A stretch of 64,000 nucleotides of DNA, taken from assembly GCF_016406125.1 (NCBI RefSeq), contig NZ_CP066340.1:1-64000 (forward strand), in the 5' to 3' direction. Origin of the DNA: Alicyclobacillus sp. SO9 (GTDB lineage: Bacteria > Bacillota > Bacilli > Alicyclobacillales > Alicyclobacillaceae). Below the pieces are notes generated by a model, which searched no databases, was not told the DNA's origin, and saw only the letters and a program-made list of their open reading frames with translations. Within the stretch, counting starts at the first letter, position 1, and every line of letters begins with the position of its first letter. Position numbers and translations under genes: made by a program. Below, one piece after another: positions 12,720-26,235 of this stretch.

Positions 12720-13112
12720 GTGGCAACACAATTACAAAAGGATTGTTGTGATGAGCTATCGGTACATTCGGATGCCGTTGCGGATTGTATGCCTACACAG
12801 CTTAGTGAATCTGCGGTCCAAAGTTTAGTGGACTCATTTAAGGCATTGGCAGATCCGACACGAATCCGTATGCTGCACAACCTGACCCGACGAGAACTCT
12901 GTGTTTGTGACTTGGCGGAGGTATTGGGCATGACACAATCGGCTGTTTCGCATCAGCTGCGGTATTTGCGGACGTTGCGAATTGTAAAGAGCCGAAGAGA
13001 TGGAAATACGGTGTACTACACCTGTGACGATGCCCACATCGTAGGCTTATTACAAATGGGAATTGATCATATTTCTCACGTAGAACGTGATGAGGAGAGA
13101 GTGTATGAGTAG
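12720..13112 (+). CDS. ArsR-family metal repressor (CDF partner)
   Basis: 130 aa winged-helix repressor divergent from the CadC-like gene. It has an N-terminal Cys pair (KDCCDEL), a further Cys at about residue 24, and ELCVCDLAEVLGM, so it could form a CadC-like thiolate site. DNA helix: TQSAVSHQLRYLR. GTG 12720 follows GAGGTGAG; the frame is open upstream to 12690. It overlaps the next gene, so it should control that CDF pump. Confidence 0.87.
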   Translation: MATQLQKDCCDELSVHSDAVADCMPTQLSESAVQSLVDSFKALADPTRIRMLHNLTRRELCVCDLAEVLGMTQSAVSHQLRYLRTLRIVKSRRDGNTVYYTCDDAHIVGLLQMGIDHISHVERDEERVYE

Positions 13113-14061
13113 CCATAATCATAGTCCTGACCACGGTCATGATCACGACCATGGAGATGTATTTCACAGCCATGCGCCTGCTGGTAAAATGAAAACGGCT
13201 TTCTTCTTGACAGTAGTGATTTTGGCTGCCGAGGTAGTTGGTGGTTTACTGTCGCATAGCTTGGCTCTGCTAGCAGACGCCGGACACGTTTTAACAGACA
13301 TTGCTGCCATCGGACTTTCTTGGTTTGCCTTAAAGCAGGCAGAAAAGCCATCTAATCAAAAAATGACATACGGCTACCACAGAGCCGGGATTTTAGCTGC
13401 GTTCATTAATGGAATGACGCTTATCCTCATTACCATCTGGATTTTGTGGGAAGCCTACGGTAGATTCAACCATCCCGAACATGTTACCCCGACCTGGATG
13501 TTCATCAGTGCCGGCATTGGTTTGTTGATGAATTTGTATCTTGGCCTTGGAATGCGAAACGAAGAAAACATCAACGTAAAAAGTGCTGTTTTGCACATGC
13601 TGGGGGATGCGGCCGCCTCTGCCGGTGTTATCGTTGGTGGTTTGATTATTATGGTAACGAAGTGGTACGTCATAGACCCTATTTTGAGTGTTCTCATTGC
13701 TTTGTTAATTGCCTCAGGGGCATGGAGAATTGTCACGCAAACAGTCGGGATTCTCATGGAAGGTACACCGAAAGGGATCGATTTACCGAAAGTCATTCAA
13801 GAAATCAAAGCAGTTACAGGTGTTCATGACGTACATGATGTACACGTATGGGGTATCACGAGCGGAAAAAATGCCATGTCGTGTCATATCGTGTTGGATG
13901 GCAGTATGTCTATCAGAGACAGTCAAAAAATTTTACGAGACCTGGAGCATCGCATGGTCCATATGAATATCGGTCATGTGACCGTTCAAACGGAAGATGC
14001 AAAACATCCCCATGATAATTCGGAGCTTTGTGCCACGGTGGAAACGGAACATCATCATTAA
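13105..14061 (+). CDS. czcD: CzcD-like CDF cation antiporter
   Basis: 318 aa, full-length cation diffusion facilitator. The His-rich N-terminus (HNHSPDHGHDHDHGD) is followed by six membrane helices with metal-site residues in LALLADAGHVLTDIAAI and HMLGDAAASAGVI, and a cytoplasmic domain ending in a HHH tail. These proteins export Zn, Co or Cd in exchange for protons. ATG 13105 overlaps the regulator stop by 8 bases, with GAGGAGAGAG upstream. Confidence 0.93.
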   Translation: MSSHNHSPDHGHDHDHGDVFHSHAPAGKMKTAFFLTVVILAAEVVGGLLSHSLALLADAGHVLTDIAAIGLSWFALKQAEKPSNQKMTYGYHRAGILAAFINGMTLILITIWILWEAYGRFNHPEHVTPTWMFISAGIGLLMNLYLGLGMRNEENINVKSAVLHMLGDAAASAGVIVGGLIIMVTKWYVIDPILSVLIALLIASGAWRIVTQTVGILMEGTPKGIDLPKVIQEIKAVTGVHDVHDVHVWGITSGKNAMSCHIVLDGSMSIRDSQKILRDLEHRMVHMNIGHVTVQTEDAKHPHDNSELCATVETEHHH

Positions 14062-14074
14062 AGGGGTGTAGTAC

Positions 14075-14377
14075 ATGTCAGGAAAGATTATTCGTTATGC
14101 AGCCCAACAGATTCACGTGCATCCGCCGTTTTGAACTGCATATGCGACACGTGAGAATACCGGGCGGGACCATCTCAAGGAAATTCGGCACACCTACGAA
14201 TATCAGCCCTTTTCCATTCAAGTGTATCGGCGAGTATTTCAACGTCTCACGCAGCAGGCATCAGAAAATGATCATGCGCTGGATTTAATCCAATCAGTGA
14301 TATCGCTGCTCCGACAAGAAAAGGTTATTCTCCCTGCAATGACGACAATTGAACACGTCGCTTGGAGTGCTCGATAA
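14075..14377 (+). pseudogene. Fragment of another Tn3 transposase
   Basis: Conceptual translation gives IIRYAAQQIHVHPPF, a frameshift, YATRENTGRDHLKEIRHTY and QEKVILPAMTTIEHVAW, ending at a stop at 14375-14377. These match the N-terminal third of Tn3 transposases (compare QKVILPGMTIIERLVW in the intact protein here) but from a more distant member. Both ends are lost. It marks an earlier element in this cargo region. Confidence 0.75.
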
Positions 14378-14732
14378 TCAAGAGACGCAGTCCGACGAAA
14401 GCGGCATAGATGCCGAGAATGAGGAGTAAGCCGCGACTGGACGTATGCAATCCAAGCCATCGTCCCACGATACCCCCGACGAAGGAGAGAATCACAACGC
14501 TCCATCTCACTGCGCCAGGTAACTGGAATAGCTGTGGTCTCGCTCCGCGAAAGAACAGCAACGAGGCCAAGAGCATGACCAGTGCGTTGATGACGACGGC
14601 CTGCTGAATGCCGAATCCCACCCAAAGCACCAATAGCAATACCAAGAAAATACGGTCGATGGTATTTTTAAGATACGTCGTTACAACCCCCACGATTAAG
14701 GCTATTAAGATGACAAGCAACCCATTTGTCAT
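14325..14732 (-). CDS. Small polytopic membrane protein
   Basis: 135 aa with about four hydrophobic helices (LLVILIALIVGVVTTYL, then ALVMLLASLLFFRGA, VVILSFVGGIVGRWLGLH and a LLLILGIYAAFVGLRLL segment). The glycine pattern resembles one half of a TauE/SafE-type permease, but I cannot assign it firmly. It is the last gene of a minus-strand set with the CMD protein and a broken arsR. Its 3' end overlaps the old transposase fragment, so the C-terminus may be chimeric. Confidence 0.6.
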   Translation of the reverse strand: MTNGLLVILIALIVGVVTTYLKNTIDRIFLVLLLVLWVGFGIQQAVVINALVMLLASLLFFRGARPQLFQLPGAVRWSVVILSFVGGIVGRWLGLHTSSRGLLLILGIYAAFVGLRLLIIEHSKRRVQLSSLQGE

Positions 14733-14771
14733 AACGCTGAACCCCCAAAAAAGTTGTTGTTTTTTATTTTT

Positions 14772-15134
14772 CTAGTTCGTTTGACCATCCTCTACGAGAA
14801 GTTTCATGGCGTCTACGGAAGCGGAGATGACGGTTGTCGCGCTCACAAATCGCGCCACAAGTAAGGCTTCCATGATTCCATCTTTCTGTATCCCTTGTCG
14901 TAAAGCACTCTTCACGTAGGTTTTGATACAGTTTTCTTGTCCGACTGCTGCCGCTGCTGTGATACTCATCAAGAGTTTGTACTTGTTTGGAATGGCGGTC
15001 TTGCTAAATAACCACTGCTTATTACTGGCATGCTCAAAAACGGCACTCTCGTCCAACTGACTGAGCAGCTCCATCGTCACCGGGCGTGCGCCGCCTTCTT
15101 TTTCCATCGCCGAAAGCAATTCTTCAATCTTCAT
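14772..15134 (-). CDS. Carboxymuconolactone decarboxylase-like (AhpD-like) protein
   Basis: 120 aa helical protein with the AhpD/CMD signature region (VGQENCIKTYVKSALRQG followed by EALLVARFV). The usual CxxC is reduced to a single Cys here (ENC), so a disulfide redox role is doubtful. ATG 15134 is well spaced from GAGGAGGA; ATG 15140 is possible. It overlaps the end of the frameshifted arsR, so it was part of an arsR-controlled operon. Function in metal stress is not known. Confidence 0.72.
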   Translation of the reverse strand: MKIEELLSAMEKEGGARPVTMELLSQLDESAVFEHASNKQWLFSKTAIPNKYKLLMSITAAAAVGQENCIKTYVKSALRQGIQKDGIMEALLVARFVSATTVISASVDAMKLLVEDGQTN

Positions 15135-15548
15135 CTTCATTTCCTCCTCGAAGTTGGTTGTCCTCATGGTGAACCAATGGCATCCGGTCCAATTTGGTTT
15201 CGTCAAGGGAATAGACTGTAAATTTCCCTTCCCGCCGTCCTTTTATCACCCCACCTCGTTCGAGAATCTTCAAGTGGTGATTGATCGTCGAGGTCGGGAT
15301 CTGTAATCCCTCCACGATTTCACACAGACAGACATTTTGAACGAGTAACATGCTACAATTTTGAGCCGTGTCTCGTCCCCGAGCGCCTTATGAAAGAGGG
15401 CGAGCTCTTCCAATTCCGTATCCTGAATCAGGATGGGATAGGTTCTTTCTGCAACTCGGACGACTTCCTCAATTTCTTCGCCGACGGACAATCGCCATGG
15501 CTGGAATTGATCATTCGGGATATGCGTCCCCTCGTCTCGTGGGCAATT
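15124..15548 (-). pseudogene. Frameshifted arsR, promoter side cut by IS
   Basis: Two frames make one ArsR protein: upstream LEELALFHKALGDETRLKIVA, then, after a shift near 15350, LLVQNVCLCEIVEGLQIP with DNA helix STINHHLKILERGG and the usual wing. The metal-site CLC is kept. The 5' end lies against the IS1380 insertion (duplication at 15549-15552). Joining across the IS gives TATAAT-like promoter sequence just before this region, so the IS separates the gene from its control region. A single-base error in the sequence is an alternative to a true frameshift. Confidence 0.75.
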
Positions 15549-15552
15549 ATAT

Positions 15553-17263
15553 CCTGAAATATTCATAGCGTGATCTCGAAGGGGCGATGAATGCAAGCAG
15601 TGCACGGCTTTGCGAGGAATTTGATGGTTCACCCAAAAGGTGACGTGAATGCATAGGAAAAGAGCCCGACCTTTGGTAGTGTTAAGGTGCGAATCCAAAC
15701 ACACAAAGGGGGCTCTTTCATGAATAGCGTACAAGGATTCACTATGAACTTCAACCCAAGGATGAGAGTAAATTTCGACGGTGGGGATTTGACCTCAGAC
15801 GCAGGTCTGCTTCTGTACATGGAGTTCGATCATAGAATTGGATTGTCTGATGTTGTCAGAAGCCAATTGGTTGTTCATGATTCAGCTTCGCATCGAGACC
15901 ATCCGAACAGCGATGTTGTGCTACAGAAGGTATACCAGCACATTGCAGGCTACCACACCGACGACCATGCAGATGATTTGGCTGTGGAGCCATTGCTGAC
16001 GACGTTGTTTGGAAAAGACCGGTTAGCTTCACAACCCACCATGTCTCGCTTCTTTGAGAAGGCGGACATTTCGACAGTCAAATCTCTGGAAAGCGTGAAT
16101 CAAACGTTGCAGCAACGTGTGTATGAGATCGAACCCCGAAAGCAATTCGTATGCGACGTGGACTCTTCCGGTTTCGCAGCCTACGGCAACCAATACGGAG
16201 CGAATTTCAATGCCCACTATCAGCAGCATGGGTTTCATCCGTTGTTTTGCTTTGACGGATTGACGGGCGATTGCCTTGGTGCTGAGCTGCGTGCTGGAAA
16301 TGTATATACCTCCCGTCAAGCGGTTCGCTTTATGGGCCCCATTCTGAGTCGTTATGAAAAATGGGCGCCGAACGCACTGGTTGTCGTCCGAGGGGATAGC
16401 GGGTTTGCCGATCCTGATCTATTTGAGTTGATAGAAGCCAAGCGTCATAAGTACGTCATCCGCCTCAAGTCGAATCCCCGGCTACAGTCCATTGCACAGG
16501 CCAAGGCAAACTCATTGCTTAACCCGAACAACGTACATAAGCGTGAAGTCTATTATCGGGAATTCATGTACCAGGCTGCCAGTTGGACAAAAGCTCGCCG
16601 AGTGGTGGTCAAGATGGAGCGCCCTGCCGGAGAGCTTCTGTTTCAGTTCACCTTCATCGTCACCAATATGGCGCTGCAACCTAAGAATGTAGTTCGTTTC
16701 TACTGTCAACGTGGACATATGGAGAATTTCATCAAGGAAGCGAAAAACGGGCTTGCCTGCGACAAAATGAGCAGCACCGACTTTGCGTCCAACGCCGTCA
16801 AACTGCAAATCGCCATGCTCGCATACAACATCAACAACTGGTTTCGCCGTTTGTGTCTGCCAGGAAAAATACGAACCAACCGAATGGAGACCTTGCGAAA
16901 CAAGCTGGTCAAAATTGCGGGAAAGCTGGTGTATTCCGGTCGATACTGGACATGGAAACTGTGCAGTTCATGCGTCTATCGAAAGGAATTCATTCAGACC
17001 CTACACAACGTGAATCGAATACCCAAATTCACTTGAAACAATGACATTCAGCCCTGACCATTAGAAACCGCCAGTACCAAACAAGGGGGAACTGCGTCCG
17101 CATCCAACACCACATTGATCCATATCATAGCCCGCGGGGTACTAGTGAAATCGTTTGGCCACCCTCAGTACGCAGAAGCGTCGAATCCCGGCCACCCGCC
17201 GCCTTAAAGTCCCTATCTCATCCATTTTCACTGTCCTTTTCACATCGCTATGAATATTTCAGG
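15553..17263 (+). mobile_element. IS1380-family insertion sequence
   Basis: 1,711 bp. The inverted ends are identical over 18 bases: CCTGAAATATTCATAGCG at 15553-15570 and its complement at 17246-17263. A 4-bp duplication ATAT flanks it (15549-15552 and 17264-17267), the size typical of this family. It contains one transposase gene and about 220 bases of non-coding DNA after the stop. It sits upstream of the broken arsR within the Tn3 cargo. Confidence 0.92.
15720..17036 (+). CDS. IS1380-family transposase
   Basis: 438 aa DDE transposase. The N-terminus has FDGGDLTSDAGLLLYMEFD, characteristic of IS1380-type proteins. Catalytic Asp in DVDSSGFAAYGNQ, second Asp in VVRGDSGFADPDLFEL and Glu in RGHMENFIKEAKNG are present, so the enzyme looks intact. 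ATG 15720 follows AAAGGGGGC; the frame is open upstream to 15687 without a better ribosome site. Confidence 0.92.
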   Translation: MNSVQGFTMNFNPRMRVNFDGGDLTSDAGLLLYMEFDHRIGLSDVVRSQLVVHDSASHRDHPNSDVVLQKVYQHIAGYHTDDHADDLAVEPLLTTLFGKDRLASQPTMSRFFEKADISTVKSLESVNQTLQQRVYEIEPRKQFVCDVDSSGFAAYGNQYGANFNAHYQQHGFHPLFCFDGLTGDCLGAELRAGNVYTSRQAVRFMGPILSRYEKWAPNALVVVRGDSGFADPDLFELIEAKRHKYVIRLKSNPRLQSIAQAKANSLLNPNNVHKREVYYREFMYQAASWTKARRVVVKMERPAGELLFQFTFIVTNMALQPKNVVRFYCQRGHMENFIKEAKNGLACDKMSSTDFASNAVKLQIAMLAYNINNWFRRLCLPGKIRTNRMETLRNKLVKIAGKLVYSGRYWTWKLCSSCVYRKEFIQTLHNVNRIPKFT

Positions 17264-17412
17264 ATATAACTATATTTCTAGTTTTGTAGTTTCACAATGA
17301 ACCATTTTCTCAATGGTACGTTTGGACTATGGACAACAAGCTTCCTTTGCCTGGTATGATTCCCCATTGAAAGGCGCAAACTTAACCAAAAATTAAGGTG
17401 AGGGGTTATTTT

Positions 17413-18633
17413 GTGAAAAAACTTGTGATTATCGGAGCTGGATTCGGGGGATTGACTGTTTTCCATCACGTCTCATCGTGGATGGATTCGCAGGATGTGG
17501 AAGTGACCGTCATTGATGAGCGAGAGACCTTCCTGGTGAAACCCTCTCTTCCCGAGGTGGCACTAGGAGAAAAGGACATTCGGGATATCACTTTCCCTCT
17601 GCGGCCCGTCATCGAGTCGTATGGGAACTTCATACGCAGTCGAGTGCACCGGATTGACCCGAGGGAGCAACAGGTGTATTTGGACGATGAAGTAAAGGTG
17701 CCGTACGATTTCCTCGTGATTGCACTGGGTGGAAAGAAGGATTTTGAGTCTGTACCTGGTTTCAGGGAACACGGTTATTCCGTATGTACAGATATCCTCG
17801 CTCCTCGACTGTATGAGGCCATAGAGAATTTCGAGCAAGGAAACATCCTGATTGGGTCTGCGCCTATGCTGTCCGGGACACGTGTCAAAGATGTCCCCCA
17901 TCTGGAAACGGCTTGTGAAGGCCCAGTTGGGGAAGTCGCGTTTATGATTGACAGTGAGTTGCGAGAGCGTGGAATTCGAGATCAAGCTCGCATCATCTGC
18001 TATAGCCCGGCAGAAATTTTCTTTGAAGATGTGGGCGACAGAGTTCACGAGGCGTTTGAAGGACTGGCCAGGAAACATGAAGTCGAGGTCGTCACCAACA
18101 AAGTCATCGACAGAATCGAAAAAGACCATGTCGTGTTCAAGGATGGGTCAACGCTTTCCTCCGCCCTGACCGTCTTAATCCCTACGTATCGCGGACCGGA
18201 CGTCATTACGCAATCTGGCCTAGGAGATGAAGCCGGTTTTGTGCCTACAGATGAAAATTTTCAGCACCTCGATTACGAGAATATTTTCGCCATTGGTGAT
18301 GTGGCGTCACGAACGGTGCCAAAGCTTGGGCATCTCGCCGTAGAGCAGGGAAATTTGGTGGCTAGTTTGCTCCGCCAACGGATGACAGGATACGGAGAGA
18401 CTTACGACTATGAACCAGAAGTATTCTGTATCATGAACATGGGGCGCGGGAAGGCCATGCTAATCCGCTCGAACACCCTATGGGGAGGTAATACTGACAT
18501 CTCCTATCACAGTGCCATGTCACATCTTATGAAGTCTTCGTTTGATACGTATATGGTGAAGTTCAAAGGAAAGATGCCCCCACAACTGGCACAACGTCTG
18601 CTCAATGTATACCTAGAACGTTTTCAAAAATAG
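17413..18633 (+). CDS. NDH-2/SQR-like FAD-dependent oxidoreductase
   Basis: 406 aa pyridine nucleotide-disulfide oxidoreductase. FAD-binding GAGFGGLTVF is at residues 8-17, and IFAIGDVASRTVPKLGHLAVEQG is the C-terminal FAD motif. The fold is that of type II NADH dehydrogenases and sulfide:quinone reductases, which act on the inner face of the membrane. It lacks an obvious SQR Cys pair, with Cys in VCTDIL and ETACEGP only, so the substrate is open. GTG 17413 is well placed after AAGGTGAGGGG. Its place beside the arsenic operon suggests a link to thiol, sulfide or arsenic redox; that is inference. Confidence 0.8.
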   Translation: MKKLVIIGAGFGGLTVFHHVSSWMDSQDVEVTVIDERETFLVKPSLPEVALGEKDIRDITFPLRPVIESYGNFIRSRVHRIDPREQQVYLDDEVKVPYDFLVIALGGKKDFESVPGFREHGYSVCTDILAPRLYEAIENFEQGNILIGSAPMLSGTRVKDVPHLETACEGPVGEVAFMIDSELRERGIRDQARIICYSPAEIFFEDVGDRVHEAFEGLARKHEVEVVTNKVIDRIEKDHVVFKDGSTLSSALTVLIPTYRGPDVITQSGLGDEAGFVPTDENFQHLDYENIFAIGDVASRTVPKLGHLAVEQGNLVASLLRQRMTGYGETYDYEPEVFCIMNMGRGKAMLIRSNTLWGGNTDISYHSAMSHLMKSSFDTYMVKFKGKMPPQLAQRLLNVYLERFQK

Positions 18634-18737: not shown

Positions 18738-19013
18738 TTGAATGAACTCACAGAGGAACTGATTCAGGTGGCGGCCACCGTGGCTGTGGGATGTACTTCC
18801 TGTTTGGAGTATCACGTACCCAAAGCAAGAGAGCTTGGGGCGCGTCATGCAGACTTGCAAGAAATCCTTGCTCTGGTTCGCCAGGTCCAGCTCATTGCCA
18901 CCATGAGGGCGGATGACTTTGCGGAGGACATGTTCCGTTCCAGGAAGAAGGAATTGAACGTGGTGACGGAAGGTTCGTCATGCGGGTGTGGCTCGGGAAG
19001 CTGTTGCTCCTAA
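18738..19013 (+). CDS. Cys-tailed CMD/AhpD-like protein
   Basis: 91 aa. The body matches carboxymuconolactone decarboxylase-like proteins with the redox motif CTSCLEYHV (CxxC, about residues 19-22). The C-terminus is a Cys-rich tail, SSCGCGSGSCCS, that looks like a soft-metal or As(III) ligand patch. It is the first gene of the arsenic operon, 27 bases before arsD. Start is TTG 18738 without a clear ribosome site, so a different start is possible. I infer a thiol reductant or arsenite-binding role; the family is not characterised for that to my knowledge. Confidence 0.75.
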   Translation: MNELTEELIQVAATVAVGCTSCLEYHVPKARELGARHADLQEILALVRQVQLIATMRADDFAEDMFRSRKKELNVVTEGSSCGCGSGSCCS

Positions 19014-19040
19014 TTTGGATATTTGAAGGAGGATTCGGGA

Positions 19041-19340
19041 ATGAAAATCGACTTTTTTGATCCTGAAATGTGTTGCTCGACCGGGGTGTGTGGTACCTCT
19101 CCAGACCCGGAATTAATTCGCGTAGGTGAGATGGTGGAGAAGCTCAAGACGGACGGCCACACCGTGGCCCGTCACATGCTGAGCCGGGATTCGGCGGCGT
19201 TCACTTCGAACAAGGACGTATATGAAACCATGTTGAAGCAAGGCTTGACAGTGTTACCGATAGTCACTGTGGATGGGGAAATTCGATCCATGGGTCGCTA
19301 TCCGCAAATGGATGAATTGTTTGCAGCAAGGGAGTCCTAA
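19041..19340 (+). CDS. arsD: ArsD arsenite metallochaperone
   Basis: 99 aa thioredoxin-fold protein that carries As(III) or Sb(III) to ArsA. The essential Cys residues are at 11, 12 and 17 (DPEMCCSTGVCG), equivalent to Cys12, 13 and 18 of plasmid R773 ArsD. GGAGG at 19028-19032 fixes ATG 19041. It lies 2 bases before arsA1, as expected for a chaperone feeding the pump ATPase. Confidence 0.95.
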   Translation: MKIDFFDPEMCCSTGVCGTSPDPELIRVGEMVEKLKTDGHTVARHMLSRDSAAFTSNKDVYETMLKQGLTVLPIVTVDGEIRSMGRYPQMDELFAARES

Positions 19341-19342
19341 TC

Positions 19343-20218
19343 ATGACCCAGTATCTTTTCTTTTCCGGGAAAGGCGGTGTCGGAAAGACTTCCCTTTCTT
19401 CCGCAACGGCCGTCATGTTAGCGAAGCAAGGTGCGAGGACGCTGCTCGTCACCACGGATCCGGCTTCGAACTTAGGAGACGTGTTTGGGCAAGAAGTGGG
19501 TCTCGAAGCCCGAGCGGTTCAAGGCGTTCCGTATTTGTTCATTCAGGAGATTAACCCGAATCAAGCCCTACAGACCTATAAAGACCGGGCCTTGGCTCCT
19601 CTTCGAGAGTTATTTCCGGAAGAGTTCGTGCAGGCTGCGGAAGAAAAGATGAGTGGGCCTTGTACGGAGGAAATCGCAACCTTTGACCAGTTTATCGCTT
19701 GTATGCATCAGCCTGACTATGAATGGGTGGTGTTTGATACGGCACCCACAGGGCACACACTACGCTTGCTGGAATTGCCGAGCAGTTGGAGTTTACACAT
19801 TGAGGAAAGTACGCAAGGAAGCGGGCAGACATGTATCGGCAGTGTGGATGCGCTTGCGGCATCCAAGGAACAATATGACAACGCGGTGCGCGCGCTGCAA
19901 GACTCGGACACAACTACGTTTGTGTTTGTCACACAGCCCGCCCGACTGCCGATGGATGAGATGCTGCGTTCCGCAAATGAACTACAGAAACTGGAGATTT
20001 CAAATCAGGTCGCGATTGTGAACGGGGTCATCCCGGAAGACGAACGGACCCACCCGTATTCTAGTCGCAGGTGGCAGAAGCAAGAACCGTTTATTCAAGA
20101 CCTGAGGTCTCGCTTTGCAGGTTCGATTGGGTACATGCCTCTCTATGCAGATGAGGTCAAAGGGATCGCGATGTTGGAACAAGTCGGGAGGGATTTACAA
20201 CATGCCATTCAACTATGA
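19343..20218 (+). CDS. arsA1: ArsA-family ATPase, first half-protein
   Basis: 291 aa. P-loop GKGGVGKTSLSS (about residues 9-20), signature DPASNLGDVFG and DTAPTGHTLRLLELP. Classical ArsA is one polypeptide with two homologous ATPase halves; here each half is a separate gene, and this one should pair with the product of 20202. Cys at NSPCTEE-like position (GPCTEEIATF) and CIGSV could take part in the As(III) site. Energises arsenite efflux through ArsB. Confidence 0.93.
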   Translation: MTQYLFFSGKGGVGKTSLSSATAVMLAKQGARTLLVTTDPASNLGDVFGQEVGLEARAVQGVPYLFIQEINPNQALQTYKDRALAPLRELFPEEFVQAAEEKMSGPCTEEIATFDQFIACMHQPDYEWVVFDTAPTGHTLRLLELPSSWSLHIEESTQGSGQTCIGSVDALAASKEQYDNAVRALQDSDTTTFVFVTQPARLPMDEMLRSANELQKLEISNQVAIVNGVIPEDERTHPYSSRRWQKQEPFIQDLRSRFAGSIGYMPLYADEVKGIAMLEQVGRDLQHAIQL

Positions 20219-21131
20219 TCAGCTCCCTGCCGACCTACTGCTGCCTCGGGGCGATAAGCGCCGGAGAATTTTCCTGGCTGGAAAAGGGGGCGTAGGAAAA
20301 ACGACGCTCGCGTCTACAACGGCGTTGTTTGCAGCGGACCAAGGCTTCAAAACGTTGCTTGTGACCACCGATCCCGCGGCTCACATCGGGAACGTGTTCG
20401 GTGAAACGGTTACCTCAGTCCCACGTCAAATTTCCGGCTCGAATCTATGGCTGGTACGAATTGACCCAAAGGTGGCGTTTGACGCCTACCGTCATCAAGT
20501 GCTGGACTCGCTGGAACATCAGTTTCAAGACACGGAGACCGTCGAACGCGTCAGTGAAGAACTGAATTCCCCCTGCACAGAAGAAGTGGCTGTCTTTCAG
20601 GAATTTCTTGACTACGTGTTGAGTGATGAGTTTGATGTGACCGTGTTTGATACGGCCCCGACGGGTCACACCGTCCGCCTTCTGCAGTTGTCTTGGGATT
20701 ACGAAGAAGAGCTAGAGCATAAGGATGCCTTTACGGCAGAAACCGCGGCTTTGGACGATGCTCAATTGGCTCGGATGAATACAGCAATTCGTACGTTGCA
20801 AGATCAAGATGAAACGGGGATGTTGTTCGTCACGTTGCCGGAATCGACGCCCATTGCGGAAATGGAGCGAGCGATTGCGGATTTAGAACGAACCCACATT
20901 TACACGCAAGGCATTATAGTGAATCAAGTACTTCCCGAAGAGGCTGCGACCAGTCGCTTGTTTGGTAAGCGCTTGGAATTGCAAATGGGGCACATTGACC
21001 GATTGAAAAAACGCAACACTAACCGAACCATTGCTGTTGCGACCTTGCAAGACGATGAAATCATTGGCGCGGAGCTCTTGAAACGATTCGCGAATGAAAT
21101 GATTGAAACATCGAAGGAGACGATACGATGA
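20202..21131 (+). CDS. arsA2: ArsA-family ATPase, second half-protein
   Basis: 309 aa paralogue of the previous gene: P-loop GKGGVGKTTLASTT, DPAAHIGNVFG and DTAPTGHTVRLLQLS. SPCTEEVAVFQ has the conserved Cys. ATG 20202 has GGGAGGGA upstream and overlaps arsA1 by 17 bases, so both are made at a fixed ratio. A start further upstream (20115) would lie deep in arsA1 and is less likely. Expected to form a heterodimer with ArsA1. Confidence 0.93.
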   Translation: MPFNYDQLPADLLLPRGDKRRRIFLAGKGGVGKTTLASTTALFAADQGFKTLLVTTDPAAHIGNVFGETVTSVPRQISGSNLWLVRIDPKVAFDAYRHQVLDSLEHQFQDTETVERVSEELNSPCTEEVAVFQEFLDYVLSDEFDVTVFDTAPTGHTVRLLQLSWDYEEELEHKDAFTAETAALDDAQLARMNTAIRTLQDQDETGMLFVTLPESTPIAEMERAIADLERTHIYTQGIIVNQVLPEEAATSRLFGKRLELQMGHIDRLKKRNTNRTIAVATLQDDEIIGAELLKRFANEMIETSKETIR

Positions 21132-21481
21132 GTGGGAAAATTGCGATAGTGATTAACTCTGGATGGGACCAAAAGGACAAGGTAACGTCGGGGATGCATG
21201 TAGCCAAACGGATTTTTGACGCGAGGGAAGAAAATCAAATTGATGCCGTGGAGGTCTTCTTGTTCACGGGGGCCGTAAAGTTACTCGAATCCGTTCCACC
21301 AGAAGTAGACAAGACTTTGACCGAACTAAAGGAAGCGGGTCTTATCGTTGGCGCTTGCTCGAATCAAGTGAACAACTGGAAACTGACGGATCCCGCCACC
21401 AAGTACAGCATTAACCTGGAATTTGCCCGTGATGCCTTCTCCCGTTACGCACGGGAAGGATATACCGTGTTAACGTTCTAA
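21128..21481 (+). CDS. DsrE-family protein
   Basis: 117 aa with the DsrE/DsrF-like fold (IAIVINSGWDQKDKV at the start, VEVFLFTGAVKLLE, and LIVGACSNQ containing a single Cys). The ATG overlaps the arsA2 stop (ATGA). Related proteins transfer sulfur or handle peroxiredoxin-like thiols. Its presence in an ars operon hints at thiolated arsenic or sulfur trafficking, which is inference. Confidence 0.8.
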   Translation: MSGKIAIVINSGWDQKDKVTSGMHVAKRIFDAREENQIDAVEVFLFTGAVKLLESVPPEVDKTLTELKEAGLIVGACSNQVNNWKLTDPATKYSINLEFARDAFSRYAREGYTVLTF

Positions 21482-21490
21482 GGGGAATAA

Positions 21491-21518
21491 GGCCCGACTG
21501 GAGTGGTCGGGCCTTTTT
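21491..21518 (+). terminator. Internal rho-independent terminator
   Basis: GGCCCGAC (21491-21498) pairs with GTCGGGCC (21506-21513), followed by TTTTT. A strong terminator after the DsrE gene, so downstream genes need read-through or their own promoter. Confidence 0.88.
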
Positions 21519-21550
21519 GTCCAACAAAGGTCTTGGAGAGTGTGGATGGA

Positions 21551-22204
21551 ATGACGCAAATGGATGATGAATTATGGTACTGGAGTGTAGACGCGCAGAC
21601 CGCACCTTATCTCCCGGTTTTTCAAGTGCGAGATACAGAATCGAGCCATGGCCGGTACGCTAAAGGAATCAAGCAAATTCACGGAATCGACCTCGTTCGA
21701 TTTCACGGCCACCCCTGTGATGGTCTCTTTCGCGGAATGTACGCCATGTCACTCGCTTTGCAGTCTCTTTTCCCTGACGGAGTGGTGGACCGAACAGACT
21801 TGCGCTTTCTGTCTCGAAATAGCCCCTGTCTCGGGGATGTAGGTGCCTACCTCACGAGAGGACGGGTGCGTTTTGGAACGCAAGATGTGCGCAGTCGACC
21901 GGGAGTATGGTACATCGTCCAACGTGGTTCCACAGGAAAGACCGTTGAAGTTGTGGAAGAAGAAGGATTTTTTCCACGCGAAATTATGGACATGGAGTCG
22001 CGACTTCCTACCCTTTCGGAGCAGGAAAAAAGTGAAGCCGTGACGACTCTCAAACAACTGCAAGAGGACTGGCTACGAAACAGCCTGTTTCCGTCGCGGC
22101 CAGAGGAGCACTATGTTGTGCGTGAGATTGATTTTGTATGGGAAGACGTGCCTTATGTACACAAAGGCACACGGACGGATGTTCTATATAAAGATGTTCT
22201 GTAA
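21551..22204 (+). CDS. FmdE-like (formylmethanofuran dehydrogenase E) domain protein
   Basis: 217 aa. Residues about 33-120 carry the FmdE signature: GIDLVRFHGHPCDGLFRGMY, then TDLRFLSRNSPCLGDVGAYL and RVRFGTQDV. The two Cys in HPCDG and SPCLGD are typical metal ligands of the family. In methanogens FmdE belongs to formylmethanofuran dehydrogenase, but stand-alone versions occur in bacteria without methanogenesis and their activity is unknown. ATG 21551 follows TTGGAGAG. Its location between the ArsA pair and arsR is unusual. Confidence 0.8.
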   Translation: MTQMDDELWYWSVDAQTAPYLPVFQVRDTESSHGRYAKGIKQIHGIDLVRFHGHPCDGLFRGMYAMSLALQSLFPDGVVDRTDLRFLSRNSPCLGDVGAYLTRGRVRFGTQDVRSRPGVWYIVQRGSTGKTVEVVEEEGFFPREIMDMESRLPTLSEQEKSEAVTTLKQLQEDWLRNSLFPSRPEEHYVVREIDFVWEDVPYVHKGTRTDVLYKDVL

Positions 22205-22221
22205 ACAGAGGTGAACAACCA

Positions 22222-22554
22222 TTGACGAGCACATTTGAAGAATTAGCAGAAGTCTACAAGGCCCTTGCAGATAAAACGAGGCTACACATGATAGCCCTGT
22301 TGGCGCTTGAAGAGCTATGTGTATGTGAACTGGTCGCCATTTTTGACATGTCTCAACCGGCGATCTCACAACACCTGCGTAAACTAAAACAAGCAGGACT
22401 GGTCAAAGAACGCAAAACAGCACAATGGGTCTACTATTCCTTGGACAACTCGAAGTTCTCGTTACTGCAGAACATTGTAGACACCTTGCCCGATGTAGAG
22501 AATGAGATTGAGCTCTTAAAATCGAAAGGATTACGGGTGCAGTGCACCTTATAG
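22222..22554 (+). CDS. arsR: ArsR arsenic-responsive repressor
   Basis: 110 aa winged-helix repressor with ELCVCELV (Cys33 and Cys35), the As(III) site of classical ArsR. DNA helix: SQPAISQHLRKLKQAG. Start is TTG with AGAGGTGAA upstream. It is 20 bases before arsB and probably represses the promoter at 18666 and any promoter after the terminator at 21491. Confidence 0.93.
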   Translation: MTSTFEELAEVYKALADKTRLHMIALLALEELCVCELVAIFDMSQPAISQHLRKLKQAGLVKERKTAQWVYYSLDNSKFSLLQNIVDTLPDVENEIELLKSKGLRVQCTL

Positions 22555-22575
22555 GAACCGGTTAGGAGCGACGGC

Positions 22576-23868
22576 ATGGTTTACCTGGCATTTGGGATTT
22601 TCCTGTTGACATTGGTTTTGGTCATTTGGCAGCCTAAGGGTTTGTCGATAGGGTGGAGTGCACTTGGGGGCGCGATACTTGCTCTTGTACTCCGGGTCGT
22701 GACCTTGAAGGATGTGGTGGAAGTAACGCGAATCGTCTGGGATGCGACACTCGCGTTCGTTGCCATTATTATTATCTCTACGATTCTGGACAAGATTGGG
22801 TTCTTTGAATGGGCAGCATTGAAAATGGCCCATGCGGCAAAAGGAGATGGGCGTAAGGTATTTTTCTACGTCACGGTTCTTGGAGCCCTGGTAGCTGCGT
22901 TTTTTGCGAACGATGGGGCCGCTTTGATTTTAACCCCTATCGTACTCGAAAAAGTGCGCGTGCTACGGTTTGATATGAAACGAATGATCCCGTTTATTAT
23001 GGCCAGCGGGTTCATTGCTGATACGACTTCGTTGCCGCTTGTGGTCAGTAATCTGGTGAATATTGTTTCAGCAGATTATTTTCACATTGGGTTTATAGAC
23101 TACGCGCTCCACATGGTGGTACCCGACCTATTCGCCTTTCTCGCGAGTGTCCTCATGTTGTACTTGTTCTTTGGCAAAGACATTCCAAAATCCTATGACC
23201 CTGCCTACTTAAGTCGACCGCGTGAGGCCATTGTTCACGAGGGAATGTTTCGAGCCTCATGGGTCATTCTCATGATTCTATTGGCAGGATACATCGTTAC
23301 ACAACTGTTGCACATTCCTGTCTCCGTCGTCGCAGGGATCATCGCCATCGTGTTTCTGTTTGCTGGAGCTCGGACAAGGGTTATTCAACCTTGGCAGGTC
23401 ATTCGAGAAGCCCCCTGGGCCATTGTGGTGTTTTCGATTGGGATGTATGTGGTGGTGTATGGACTTCGTAACGTGGGCCTAACCACGATTTTGGGTCACG
23501 TGATCCAGTCCTCCACGACCGGTGGCTTGTACGCTGGAACTCTGGCGATGGGCTACCTTGCGGCCCTATTGTCCAGCATCATGAACAACATGCCTACGGT
23601 TATGATTGATGCCTTGGCCATACACTCAACACAAACCGTTGGAATCATGCACCAGGCACTGGTCTATGCCAATGTCATCGGCAGCGATTTGGGACCGAAA
23701 ATTACACCGATTGGGTCTTTAGCAACCTTGTTGTGGTTGCATGTTCTCGGTAAGAAAGGAATCCGTATCCCCTGGGGGCAGTATTTCAAGACCGGAATTG
23801 TTTTAACCGTGCCGGTCTTGTTTGTAACTTTATCCGGACTATATCTCTGGATGAGGGTCCTTGGGTAG
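22576..23868 (+). CDS. arsB: ArsB arsenite efflux permease
   Basis: 430 aa with about 12 membrane helices, matching the ArsB (Na+/H+ antiporter-like) family: [39 protein letters not shown] and [16 protein letters not shown]. Acts in the cytoplasmic membrane alone or with ArsA. It is intact and of the usual length. Confidence 0.96.
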
Positions 23869-23902
23869 AGTAGATTCGTCAAGCATTGTGGGGGGATGTT
23901 AG

Positions 23903-24340
23903 GTGGGTGAACCAGTCAAAATCTACTTTATCTGCATTTTCAATCGTGCTCGGAGTCAAATGGCAGAAGCTTTCGCGAAGAAATACGGCGGGGACCGTGT
24001 CGCCGTATCGAGCGCGGGTGTGGACGGAGCAAAGGAAATTCACCCGATGACGGTCGAGGTCATGAAAGAAGTTGGAATCGATATCTCGCAAAACAAGTCG
24101 AAGACGCTCAACATGAAAACCTTCGTCGATTCCAATCTCATTGTGAAACTATGTGAAGAAGCCCATGAACGGTGTCCCATTGTCCCATTTGGAATTCAAA
24201 ATGAGCAATGGGATATTGTGGACCCCGTTCCAAAGGTAGGTTCAGAACCAGACATGGAATCTTTCCGTAAGGTAAGGGATGAGATTGAAAGGCACGTAAA
24301 AGGGCTCTTGCACCGATTGGGAATTCACGAAACGGTTTGA
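23903..24340 (+). CDS. arsC: ArsC-like arsenate reductase, first copy
   Basis: 145 aa low-molecular-weight phosphatase fold. P-loop CIFNRARS (Cys11, CX5R) with later Cys84 and Cys91 (LCEEAHERCP) as in thioredoxin-coupled ArsC. It departs from the usual CTGNSCRS signature: the second Cys is replaced. It starts at GTG 23903. The difference from the second copy suggests specialisation or a related substrate; reduction of arsenate is likely. Confidence 0.88.
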   Translation: MGEPVKIYFICIFNRARSQMAEAFAKKYGGDRVAVSSAGVDGAKEIHPMTVEVMKEVGIDISQNKSKTLNMKTFVDSNLIVKLCEEAHERCPIVPFGIQNEQWDIVDPVPKVGSEPDMESFRKVRDEIERHVKGLLHRLGIHETV

Positions 24341-24372
24341 TGGCATCTAAATTTGCTTAAGGAGAGATGGAT

Positions 24373-24807
24373 ATGAAAAAACCGATTGTTTACTTTATTT
24401 GCACGGGAAACTCGTGCCGTTCACAAATGGCCGAGGGCTGGGCACGTCATTTTGCTGGGGATAAGGTAACCGTACTGAGTGGCGGAATCGAAGCACATGG
24501 TCTGAATCCAAGAGCCATACAAGTGATGCAAGAAGCTGGGATAGATATGTCTAATCATACGTCGAACTTAATCGATAACGACGTATTGAACCAGTCTGAC
24601 TATGCCATTACCTTATGTGGTGATGCGTATGACAAGTGTCCGGTGACACCGCCCCACGTGAAACGCCTGCACTGGGGGTATGAAGACCCCGCGCGGGCCA
24701 CGGGTACGGAGGAAGAAATCATGGACAAGTTTCGGGAGGTCCGAGATGCCATACGGGACCGCGTTCGTGAGTTTATGATTGAACTCACCAAGACACCGCA
24801 GTCTTAA
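24373..24807 (+). CDS. arsC: ArsC arsenate reductase (thioredoxin-coupled), second copy
   Basis: 144 aa with all the catalytic residues of Bacillus ArsC: Cys10 and Cys15 in CTGNSCRS, Cys82 and Cys89 in [10 protein letters not shown]. Reduces As(V) to As(III), with the disulfide then reduced by thioredoxin. AAGGAG at 24359-24364 favours ATG 24373 over 24367. It lies 40 bases before a thioredoxin-reductase gene that could supply electrons. Confidence 0.95.
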
Positions 24808-24847
24808 GGCAGTTACCTATAAGTGGGTCGAGATAGGAGAGACCAAG

Positions 24848-25891
24848 ATGACCACAGTAGGAGAAAACGGTGCACTTCATAACAAAGAACAGGGAGTGGA
24901 ATCCATACTCTTTGGGGTTTCAACCGTGAAGCAGACTATAGAGACGTATGATTTAGTGATCATTGGTGGGGGTCCCGCAGGCTTGTCGGCTGGGGTTTAT
25001 GCAGCACGGGCAAACTTAAGGACGCTGATTCTTGAAAAGGGATTACCGGGCGGACAAATGCAAAACACCTTGGAAGTCGAGAACTATACAGGCATGCAAA
25101 TGATTTTGGGACCAGAATTATCCGAGTCGATGCTCGCGCATGCGGATCATCTGGGCGTGGAATTTAAGATGGCCGATGTCCAGAGGATAGATATGCACGG
25201 AAATCCCAAGACCCTGTTTACCTCAGAAGGCGAATTCAAAGCGAAAGCAGTGCTGATCGCGACGGGGGCAACGCCGAAGAAACTGGGTATTCCTGGTGAA
25301 GATCGTTTGAGCGGACGCGGAGTTAGTTGGTGTGCTGTATGTGACGGTGCGTTCTTCAAGAACAAGAAAATTGCCGTTGTAGGTGGAGGAGATAGCGCCA
25401 TTGAGGAAGGCACATTCTTAACCAAATTCGGTGAATCTGTCTCGGTGATTCATCGCCGTGACAAACTACGGGCGCAGCCAATATTACAAGAACGGGCTTT
25501 TTCTTCGGAAAAAATGGACTTCATCTGGAACCACAAGGTTGTGGAGATCTTGGGCGAAAATCGAGTCAGTGGAATCCGGATTCAGCATGTTGAGACTGGA
25601 GAGGAACAAGAAATTGAAATGCATGGGGTGTTCATTTACGTCGGCTTTACACCCATGACGTCATTCATCTCACATCAGGAAATTCTTGACCAAGACGGCT
25701 ATATCATCACGGATGAAGATATGCAGACGTCGATTCCGGGCATTTTCGCCGCTGGGGATGTGCGCCCGAAGGGACTGCGCCAAATCATCACCGCCGCTTC
25801 CGATGGCGCGATAGCAGCCATGACCGCATATCACTACATCGAATCCCTGGCTGACGCAGAACCCGCTAACGTGACGCAGAGTCAAGCCTAA
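24848..25891 (+). CDS. trxB: Thioredoxin reductase with extra N-terminal segment
   Basis: 347 aa. FAD motif GGGPAGLSAGVYAARA, redox-active WCAVCDGAFF (CxxC) and NADP motif GGGDSAIEEG are all present, with the C-terminal FAD motif IFAAGDVRPKGLRQI. The first about 33 residues are an extra segment (QGVESILFGVSTVKQTIE) that resembles the N-terminus of the next gene product (KGVEVVLSGDVTVKQTLQ), with DNA similarity too. This looks like fusion of trxB to a duplicated gene start. ATG 24848 follows TAGGAGAGACC. It should recycle thioredoxin for ArsC. Confidence 0.92.
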   Translation: MTTVGENGALHNKEQGVESILFGVSTVKQTIETYDLVIIGGGPAGLSAGVYAARANLRTLILEKGLPGGQMQNTLEVENYTGMQMILGPELSESMLAHADHLGVEFKMADVQRIDMHGNPKTLFTSEGEFKAKAVLIATGATPKKLGIPGEDRLSGRGVSWCAVCDGAFFKNKKIAVVGGGDSAIEEGTFLTKFGESVSVIHRRDKLRAQPILQERAFSSEKMDFIWNHKVVEILGENRVSGIRIQHVETGEEQEIEMHGVFIYVGFTPMTSFISHQEILDQDGYIITDEDMQTSIPGIFAAGDVRPKGLRQIITAASDGAIAAMTAYHYIESLADAEPANVTQSQA

Positions 25892-25965
25892 CTGGCGCCT
25901 TGGTTTGTGTGAGTACAGGTTTAAGACTGAGCATACGTCGAAAAAAGTTAGAAGGGACGATAAGG

Positions 25966-26235
25966 ATGAGCAAAATGAATGAGATTAGTACTGTATGTGA
26001 AGGGGAAAAGGGAGTAGAGGTTGTACTCTCCGGCGATGTGACTGTGAAGCAGACATTACAGATGGTCGAAGAGTGTTCAACGGGCTCGTGTAGTTGCTGT
26101 ACACCAACGTTCATGGAGCAAATTACGAAAATCGATGTTGCTGGCCAAGACGGTGAAGTCCGAATCCAGATTGAAGGTAACGTAAAACTCGAAGAAATAG
26201 AAAAGAACCTGAGTTCTTGTAACAAGGAAGTCTAA
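25966..26235 (+). CDS. Cys-rich small protein of unknown function
   Basis: 89 aa. Central cluster ECSTGSCSCCTPTFM gives four Cys in ten residues, a good arsenite or soft-metal ligand set, plus a Cys near the C-terminus (LSSCNKEV). The N-terminal 30 residues are duplicated at the start of the trxB gene upstream. I do not recognise a named family. It is the last gene before the terminator, after ArsC and TrxB, so a small arsenite carrier or regulator is a fair guess. Confidence 0.75.
   Translation: MSKMNEISTVCEGEKGVEVVLSGDVTVKQTLQMVEECSTGSCSCCTPTFMEQITKIDVAGQDGEVRIQIEGNVKLEEIEKNLSSCNKEV

Follow-up and report, generated by a model that had tools for sequence, protein, structure and literature searches.

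What might genes for a CMD-family (carboxymuconolactone) protein with a Cys-rich tail, a DsrE-like protein and an FmdE-family protein be doing inside an operon for arsenic efflux? The operon that raises this question occupies positions 18738–26235, on the + strand, of a 64,000-nucleotide stretch of Alicyclobacillus sp. SO9 DNA (contig NZ_CP066340.1, positions 1 to 64,000; hereafter the window), and encodes CMD, ArsD, ArsA1, ArsA2, DsrE-like, FmdE, ArsR, ArsB, ArsC-like, ArsC, TrxB and Cys-cluster proteins, in that order. We find that the three added genes recur with arsD and arsA in other genomes of the same order and in a second bacterial class. A sulfur or thiol link to arsenic resistance is supported by association, and the mechanism that we favour is one in which the extra proteins would handle sulfur- or thiol-bound arsenic ahead of the pump.

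Composition of the operon

Families were scored with Pfam and NCBIfam profiles against curated cut-offs; start codons place ArsD at 19041, FmdE at 21551 and the Cys-cluster gene at 25966.

17398–18633, + strand: sulfide:quinone oxidoreductase (SQR) homologue, ending 104 nt before the CMD gene; 3h8i matched at E 1.2e-62
18738–19013, + strand: CMD/AhpD-like protein, CxxCxxxH motif, C-terminal tail rich in Cys; TTG start; PF02627 34.4 bits (cut-off 23)
19041–19340, + strand: ArsD arsenite metallochaperone; NF033727 110 bits (cut-off 90)
19343–20218, + strand: ArsA1, first half of a split ArsA ATPase; PF02374 242 bits (cut-off 24.3)
20202–21131, + strand: ArsA2, second half of the split ArsA ATPase; PF02374 224 bits (cut-off 24.3); 17-nt overlap with arsA1
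21128–21481, + strand: DsrE-like protein; PF02635 20.9 bits (gathering score 22.7); PDB 2fb6 matched at E 3e-4
21489–21518, + strand: terminator-like hairpin (21489–21515) plus T run between dsrE and fmdE; -20.1 kcal/mol
21551–22204, + strand: FmdE-family protein; PF02663 44.4 bits (gathering score 22.9)
22222–22554, + strand: ArsR repressor; NF033788 105 bits (cut-off 55)
22576–23868, + strand: ArsB arsenite efflux permease; PF02040 637 bits (cut-off 22.2)
23903–24340, + strand: divergent ArsC paralogue, thioredoxin type; TIGR02691 132 bits (cut-off 174.3)
24367–24807, + strand: ArsC, thioredoxin-coupled arsenate reductase; TIGR02691 212 bits (cut-off 174)
24848–25891, + strand: TrxB thioredoxin reductase; TIGR01292 394 bits (cut-off 343), matched from residue 34
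25966–26235, + strand: small Cys-cluster protein (ECSTGSCSCC); no family above cut-off

Intergenic gaps from the CMD gene through the Cys-cluster gene run from -17 to +77 nt, and the genes that a sequence-only reading of this DNA had named are all present, on one strand, closely spaced and supported by their profile scores. ArsR, ArsD, ArsA and ArsB are contiguous and exceed their curated cut-offs, the mark of an ars operon. Being split into two genes, ArsA falls short of the full-length model TIGR04291 (cut-off 650); two half-size genes are indeed present, as that reading had it, in an arrangement already described in the accessible text of PMC2963123. Its pair of arsC genes is secure for the second member (212 bits); the first (132 bits) stays under the TIGR02691 cut-off, though it carries both CX5R (CIFNRARS) and a C-x6-C pair (LCEEAHERC). 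TrxB bears an N-terminal extension of ~31 residues. The Cys residues expected to bind As(III), located by comparison with what we take to be the R773 positions, are invariant in 26/26 sequences each (ArsD C12/C13/C18, ArsA1 C107/C164, ArsA2 C125, ArsR C33/C35), and ArsR keeps C108 alongside its CxC pair (C33, C35) in all 26.

Conserved residues, predicted structure and selection

CMD passes the PF02627 cut-off and contains CxxCxxxH, which places it in the CMD/AhpD family. Its tail, SSCGCGSGSCCS, varies across homologues (e.g., CGCGSGSCC or CGPGCNC), and C19, C22 and tail C84 are present in 22/22 aligned homologues, H26 in 21/22. Against the ArsM–AhpD selenoprotein model NF041537 it scores 27.8 bits, where 510 are needed. 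The DsrE-like protein has a single invariant Cys, C77 (28/28), a candidate sulfur carrier; with a profile score (20.9 bits) just short of the Pfam threshold of 22.7, its DsrE-type label is weaker than the sequence-only reading had it. Partners of a DsrEFH complex (DsrF, DsrH, DsrC) were absent from the Pfam-scanned open reading frames of window positions 13–30 kb, the rest of the genome lying outside that search.

FmdE (residues numbered from 21548) has a predicted metal site of H53, H55, C57 and C94, invariant, together with D97, in all 20 aligned rows. A sequence search found no solved relative. An AlphaFold2 model (predicted local distance difference test score, pLDDT, 87.7) used as a Foldseek query gave 3d00, 2glz and 2gvi as the only matches at E <0.001 (E 2e-5 to 5e-5), with moderate template-modelling scores of 0.43–0.49 by query length. 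The FHGHxC motif, the second Cys, the Asp and a predicted thioredoxin-like core fold together place it in PF02663. Core domains of that family bind Zn or Ni via His15, His17, Cys19 and Cys55, the metal sitting on the floor of a groove within the thioredoxin-like core (accessible text of PMC2954224); by the shared FHGHxC motif, the window's predicted ligands are equivalent to these four.

CMD, DsrE and FmdE are under purifying selection, with ratios of nonsynonymous to synonymous substitution (dN/dS) of 0.05–0.22. Against the related locus L011 the values are 0.06 for DsrE, 0.22 for FmdE, 0.18 for CMD and 0.04–0.07 for ArsA/ArsD; against L062 they are 0.05, 0.12, 0.19 and 0.04–0.10, respectively.

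Recurrence in the host's order and in Sulfobacillia

ArsD was found in 47 of 299 genomes of the host's class, at 52 places (53 rows, one place being in two pieces), 48 of which were examined as long stretches; the other four (G069, G130, G141, G173) were available as 3.3-kb stretches, in which CMD, DsrE and FmdE were not found. Seven of the 48 belong to the host's own order—two in its own genome and one each in G179, G190, G253, G280 and G125, the last being of the host's own family—and at these CMD adjoins ArsD in 6/7, DsrE is in the operon in 6/7 and FmdE in 4/7 (one broken). None of the three was detected at tblastn E 0.01 anywhere in the stretches covering the remaining 41 places (39 stretches), which rules out the accessory genes as a general feature of ars operons in the class. 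FmdE matched at E 0.001 in 7/299 genomes, and strongly (170 bits or more) in four.

Of the order's 59 genomes, 11 hold strong DsrE places (at least 199 bits), 13 in total, every one sitting with arsD, arsA1 and arsA2; CMD is present in nine of these operons, truncated in one and absent from three. The host's second copy, on the chromosome, reads arsD-arsA1-arsA2-dsrE-arsR, its proteins being 72–88% identical to the plasmid ones, with CMD, FmdE and ArsB all missing nearby; DsrE is therefore retained where FmdE is not. At L191, in a different family, ArsA1 and ArsA2 are 98% identical to the window's, and the operon has therefore moved between families recently. Among 299 genomes from the phylum of G299, a strong DsrE match was confined to G299.

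A second survey, entered through a contig of a metagenome-assembled genome (L013), covered a class of 154 genomes taken as Sulfobacillia; at NCBI, Sulfobacillus and Alicyclobacillus belong to different classes. Eighteen of these genomes carry strong ars-type FmdE loci (at least 95 bits), 19 in all, to which we add L200, cut by a contig end, which began as a control and proved to be the same operon type, making 20 loci and leaving nine FmdE controls (FmdE fragments at contig ends in G688 and G689 were left out, and L209, which overlaps L175, was counted once). DsrE lies alongside at 19 of the 20, arsA is in the cluster at 14, ArsD at 13 and a Cys-tailed CMD at 13, the usual order being arsR-cmd-arsD-arsA1-arsA2-dsrE-fmdE-arsB. 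L184 (at a contig end) and L187 retain ArsB, L187 with ArsR as well; at L180, L185, L186 and L190 the stretch examined contains no ars gene, the FmdE of L190 being a relic without DsrE.

Over the FmdE loci of both groups (7 + 20), DsrE is alongside in 26/27. Because some Sulfobacillia loci carry the pair without ars genes in the stretch examined, DsrE–FmdE is a unit of its own, usually but not always tied to ars. At L186 (9132–11692), a stretch free of ars genes, the pair lies next to a canonical FmdE and TauE, a hint that it is able to serve sulfur metabolism alone.

Mean identity between the two classes is 0.55 for DsrE, 0.54 for FmdE, 0.52 for ArsA1, 0.47 for ArsD, 0.43 for ArsA2 and 0.36 for CMD, so that DsrE and FmdE are conserved on a par with ArsA1 and above the other three. 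Pairwise distances of CMD, DsrE and FmdE with each other or with ArsD/ArsA correlate at r 0.85–0.94 overall and at 0.58–0.93 within one class (own-order FmdE having too few rows), values inflated in part by common descent and drawn from tables that exclude L197, L109, L179 and proteins below a per-gene length limit. Recurrence in another class, together with purifying selection on CMD, DsrE and FmdE, makes the gene set more than a chance assembly, and recurrence in both groups rules it out as a one-off of this element; the genome-neighbourhood survey that the sequence-only reading had called for thus ties FmdE, DsrE and the Cys-tailed CMD to arsD/arsA well beyond the window.

Distant FmdE relatives in other phyla

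Twenty loci outside the phylum (19 plus one on a Sulfuricella plasmid) encode FmdE proteins 31–48% identical to the window's, several of which begin, by eye, with a signal-peptide-like stretch that the window's protein lacks. An Acr3-type gene lies within 7.5 kb in 7/20 (tblastn; the six tested pass TIGR00832), ArsC occurs in 4/20, and at least one of acr3, a PF03773 permease, arsC and arsR in 15/20. The Sulfuricella locus is flanked on one side by an ATP synthase operon, and no ars gene is annotated there. At the nine control loci, which hold other FmdE-family proteins, arsenic transporter, ArsC, ArsD and ArsA were found in 0/9 and an ArsR-type gene in one; over 16 background stretches that include these nine, a single ArsR was the sole match.

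CcdA-like and thioredoxin-like genes are found close to the FmdE homologues at L017, L025, L026 and L030. As a separate observation, in the delta-proteobacterial L017 (8186–16874) the homologue, a triple-rhodanese and a phosphonate-type binding protein are joined to arsR-acr3-arsC, in a cluster that further has histidine-kinase-like and response-regulator-like proteins.

Sulfur-type neighbours

The quinone-type flavoprotein that had been noticed next to the operon is an SQR homologue. Its best solved relative, 3h8i (E 1.2e-62), is labelled NADH oxidase in the table of matches, and we take it to be the Acidianus SQR; other SQRs follow it in that list at E 1e-31 and below. C130, C173 and C344 align with Cys of 3h8i and are presumably the catalytic Cys of SQR. 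The NCBIfam subtype model SQR_III gives 148 bits, below its cut-off of 525.

With the window's own SQR excluded, an SQR, TauE or second canonical FmdE lies within 12 kb of the anchor in 10/29 such operons; none was found in the 39 stretches with ordinary arsD loci, which come from other families. At L173 all three stand in one row with the operon. These neighbours, which include sulfide and sulfite genes and lie near such operons and near none of the ordinary loci, strengthen the sulfur link; a link to the putative sulfur- or thiol-linked arsenic chemistry proposed from the sequence is thus backed by genomic association.

Proposed function and its alternatives

The reading that we favour, at about an even chance, is that of an ArsR-controlled arsenite/arsenate efflux operon, probably plasmid-borne, with a thiol/sulfur-handling unit built into the ArsD–ArsA–ArsB pathway. 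By analogy with their families, ArsC would reduce arsenate with help from the operon's TrxB, ArsD would bind As(III) through C12/C13/C18 and load the ArsA1–ArsA2 pair (C107, C164, C125), this pair would energise ArsB, and ArsR would sense As(III) through its CxC. CMD, with CxxCxxxH and the Cys-rich tail, may be a redox-active As(III)- or thiol-relay protein partnering ArsD. DsrE and FmdE may form a working pair, the former carrying persulfide or arsenic on its single Cys and the latter offering a His2Cys2 metal site in a thioredoxin-like fold. Together they would move arsenic out of or into sulfur-bound forms (As–thiol, persulfide, thioarsenite), and the pump would then clear it where arsenic and reduced sulfur co-occur and SQR makes polysulfide. 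A more specific version, in which DsrE and FmdE are a two-protein device for sulfur transfer to or from arsenic (forming or cleaving thioarsenite or arsenic–persulfide bonds) with CMD feeding ArsD–ArsA, we regard as doubtful; if true, these would be the first dedicated thioarsenic-handling genes in an efflux operon.

Several observations weigh against a sulfur-handling unit within the pump pathway. DsrE–FmdE pairs stand without an ars gene in the stretch at 3/20 Sulfobacillia loci (L180, L185, L186), in genomes with no ArsD match (G653 and G705, for L185 and L186) or a partial one of 42 bits (G706, for L180), and the pair may therefore act apart from ArsDA. FmdE is dispensable, being intact in 5, broken in 2 and absent from 6 of the 13 own-order operons. 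The free-standing pairs and this frequent loss speak against a strict dependence on ArsDA. The DsrE-like protein falls short of the PF02635 gathering score, as given above, and distances correlate more weakly with ArsB (r 0.50–0.85; ArsR pairs 0.50–0.88), all such correlations being already inflated by descent. SQR and TauE are missing from the stretch examined at 19/29 loci, many of the 29 stretches being short; SQR copies are fragmented in L011 and L194; and part of the contrast between 10/29 and 0/39 may be genome content, since the ordinary loci come from other families and the SQR/TauE/FmdE probes from the tested groups. Among the distant relatives, PF03773 permeases are not arsenic-specific (two that were tested are nearest SaoE or a Cu/Zn exporter, below NCBIfam cut-off), and the nine FmdE controls are Bacillota whereas the 20 homologues come from other phyla, so that phylum is unmatched. 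In the accessible text of PMC6620896, SQR-type genes were uninduced by As(III) in that study's own strains, and in that of PMC12524180 an annotated Acidiplasma formylmethanofuran dehydrogenase subunit E was >14-fold lower on sulfur, pyrite and arsenopyrite.

A serious rival, if one that we consider rather unlikely, is general thiol/redox protection: CMD would be a thioredoxin-fed peroxidase of the AhpD type, DsrE and FmdE would repair or hold thiols or handle sulfide, and the genes would ride with ars through the oxidative and thiol stress that arsenite causes, never touching arsenic. The AhpD-type CxxCxxxH motif of CMD, the TrxB in the operon, the SQR/TauE neighbours and the DsrE–FmdE pairs without nearby ars genes (one beside TauE and another FmdE) would all fit; against this, the extra genes stand in line with arsD/arsA, between these and arsR or arsB, in two classes, and the Cys-rich CMD tail is retained in ars loci. 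The invariant His2Cys2 ligand set, and the Zn/Ni seen in FmdE crystal structures (accessible text of PMC2954224), would equally suit a metal chaperone, with FmdE sensing metal, or supplying or shielding zinc (or nickel) on behalf of proteins that As(III) has damaged, and DsrE as its partner. No other gene of the operon comes from a zinc-handling family, however (a cation-diffusion gene at 13087–14061 is outside it, with relatives near 2/29 related operons, L059 and L181), and we judge a chaperone improbable. That CMD, DsrE and FmdE are mere passengers, spread with a mobile ars operon in which they have no role, is very improbable: the 90-kb contig with partition and replication genes, the interfamily movement marked by L191 (98% identity in ArsA1/ArsA2) and the repeated loss or breakage of FmdE are what it would predict, but gene order is held at 36–55% mean protein identity, under purifying selection and with invariant active-site residues. 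An FmdE serving an arsenite oxidase was ruled out, as the host genome has no AioA match (TIGR02693) over cut-off and hence no sign of that pathway.

Relation to known systems

Operons of the arsRDABC type, as on R773 and pI258, are the standard comparison. Shared with them (PMC6205960, accessible text) are ArsR, ArsD, ArsA, ArsB, thioredoxin-type ArsC and the As-binding Cys; the window differs in its split ArsA, mid-operon ArsR, added CMD, DsrE-like and FmdE proteins, two ArsC and trxB. Two single-domain ArsA proteins occur with Acr3 in Alkaliphilus metalliredigens (PMC2963123, accessible text), which rules out split ArsA as new: two half-size genes likewise replace one, but the partner there is Acr3 and CMD, DsrE and FmdE are unnamed. 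As far as that text extends, ars operons with split ArsA and ars operons with redox genes are already known; the operons with added redox or thiol genes are alike in principle and use different families, and DsrE, formylmethanofuran and carboxymuconolactone are absent from the paper's main text. The window's FmdE shares the core fold and His/His/Cys/Cys motif of 2glz, 3d00 and 2gvi (PF02663) and differs in belonging to a separate subfamily that goes with DsrE and, in most cases, with ars genes.

No description was found of CMD, DsrE or FmdE as ars-operon members, in a literature coverage that leaves out most subscription papers, and the CMD–DsrE–FmdE version is a variant not found described in the literature covered. 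Carboxymuconolactone is not mentioned in the accessible text of the review PMC6205960, nor carboxymuconolactone or DsrE in that of the Alicyclobacillus mali genome paper (PMC8060452), nor DsrE or formylmethanofuran in the main text of the S. thermotolerans proteome paper (PMC7409299). The accessible text of PMC6620896 reports that DsrE/F-like genes respond to As(III), calling their role in the arsenite response unclear, and that either sulfide or As(III) switches on an SQR operon in Synechocystis. In the part available of a Pantoea study, a dsrE downstream of an arsC-like gene is described as making no contribution to resistance.

In this compact, conserved operon a thoroughly studied arsenic pump is combined with a Cys-tailed CMD, DsrE and FmdE, which provides defined, testable genes; it also suggests a possible function for some members of the FmdE family, to which the structural paper assigns none (PMC2954224, accessible text). 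Its recurrence in distantly related bacteria suggests that arsenic is handled partly through sulfur chemistry. This bears on bioleaching bacteria such as Sulfobacillus, which include carriers of this operon type and are used on ores where arsenic and sulfide minerals occur together (accessible text of PMC6803676 and PMC7409299).

The dsrE–fmdE hairpin and the distal genes

A hairpin with T run follows dsrE in 5/12 own-order loci including the window, similar in L011, L062 and L195 and different in L057; L194, with FmdE intact, has none between dsrE and fmdE, and at Sulfobacillia loci there is little space between dsrE and fmdE, so that the best hairpins reach into the fmdE coding sequence. A promoter/terminator scan gave matches not above those in shuffled sequences and did not list this hairpin. 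Where present, it may hold arsD-arsA-dsrE output in excess of fmdE-arsR-arsB.

At the distal end, operon membership of trxB and of the Cys-cluster gene is not conserved. A clear TrxB relative (44%) occurs in one operon-bearing stretch only (L194), and the Cys-cluster protein, counted by the sequence-only reading as part of the operon, has no relative in the 30 operon-bearing stretches; it matches at E 0.01 or better in 4/299 genomes, the host included, its relatives (31–35% identity) adjoining other ArsR genes. Its single-sequence model has a pLDDT of 71.3. The TrxB N-terminal extension (24887–24944) and the start of the Cys-cluster gene (26005–26062) share 40/58 bases, a resemblance suggestive of an old local duplication. 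An ArsR gene with extra Cys motifs adjoins relatives of the Cys-cluster protein at L061 (8153–10179), L152 (10049–10741) and L197 (9194–13387); a DsrE-like gene is also near in L061 and L197, and in L061 a PIG-L family gene, presumably of the BshB type, comes next. These loci are perhaps a second thiol-linked regulon.

Replicon and neighbouring genes

The genome comprises two contigs (5.29 Mb), the operon lying on the one of 90,030 bases. This contig encodes ParA-, partition- and replication-type proteins and tail-type phage proteins, and is on that account most likely a plasmid that carries a phage remnant.

1–756, 2840–3793, 35602–36993 and 47439–48269 of the window: partition/replication-type genes, two sets
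28–31 kb of the window: tail-type phage genes

Two partition/replication sets on a single 90-kb contig suggest a fused plasmid. In a plasmid collection from which records of this and very near genomes were possibly excluded, the operon had no DNA match, CMD, DsrE and the Cys-cluster protein had no protein match, and FmdE had one distant match.

On the minus strand, positions 14325–15734 hold what appears to be a remnant: a short TauE-like gene (20.3 bits, under the Pfam cut-off), outsized by its L011 counterpart; a second CMD gene, intact; and an ArsR-type gene apparently split over two frames (15124–15351 and 15270–15734), whose counterpart is in pieces in L011 and looks whole in L108. A DDE_Tnp_1_4 transposase gene (15687–17036) separates this remnant from the SQR gene.

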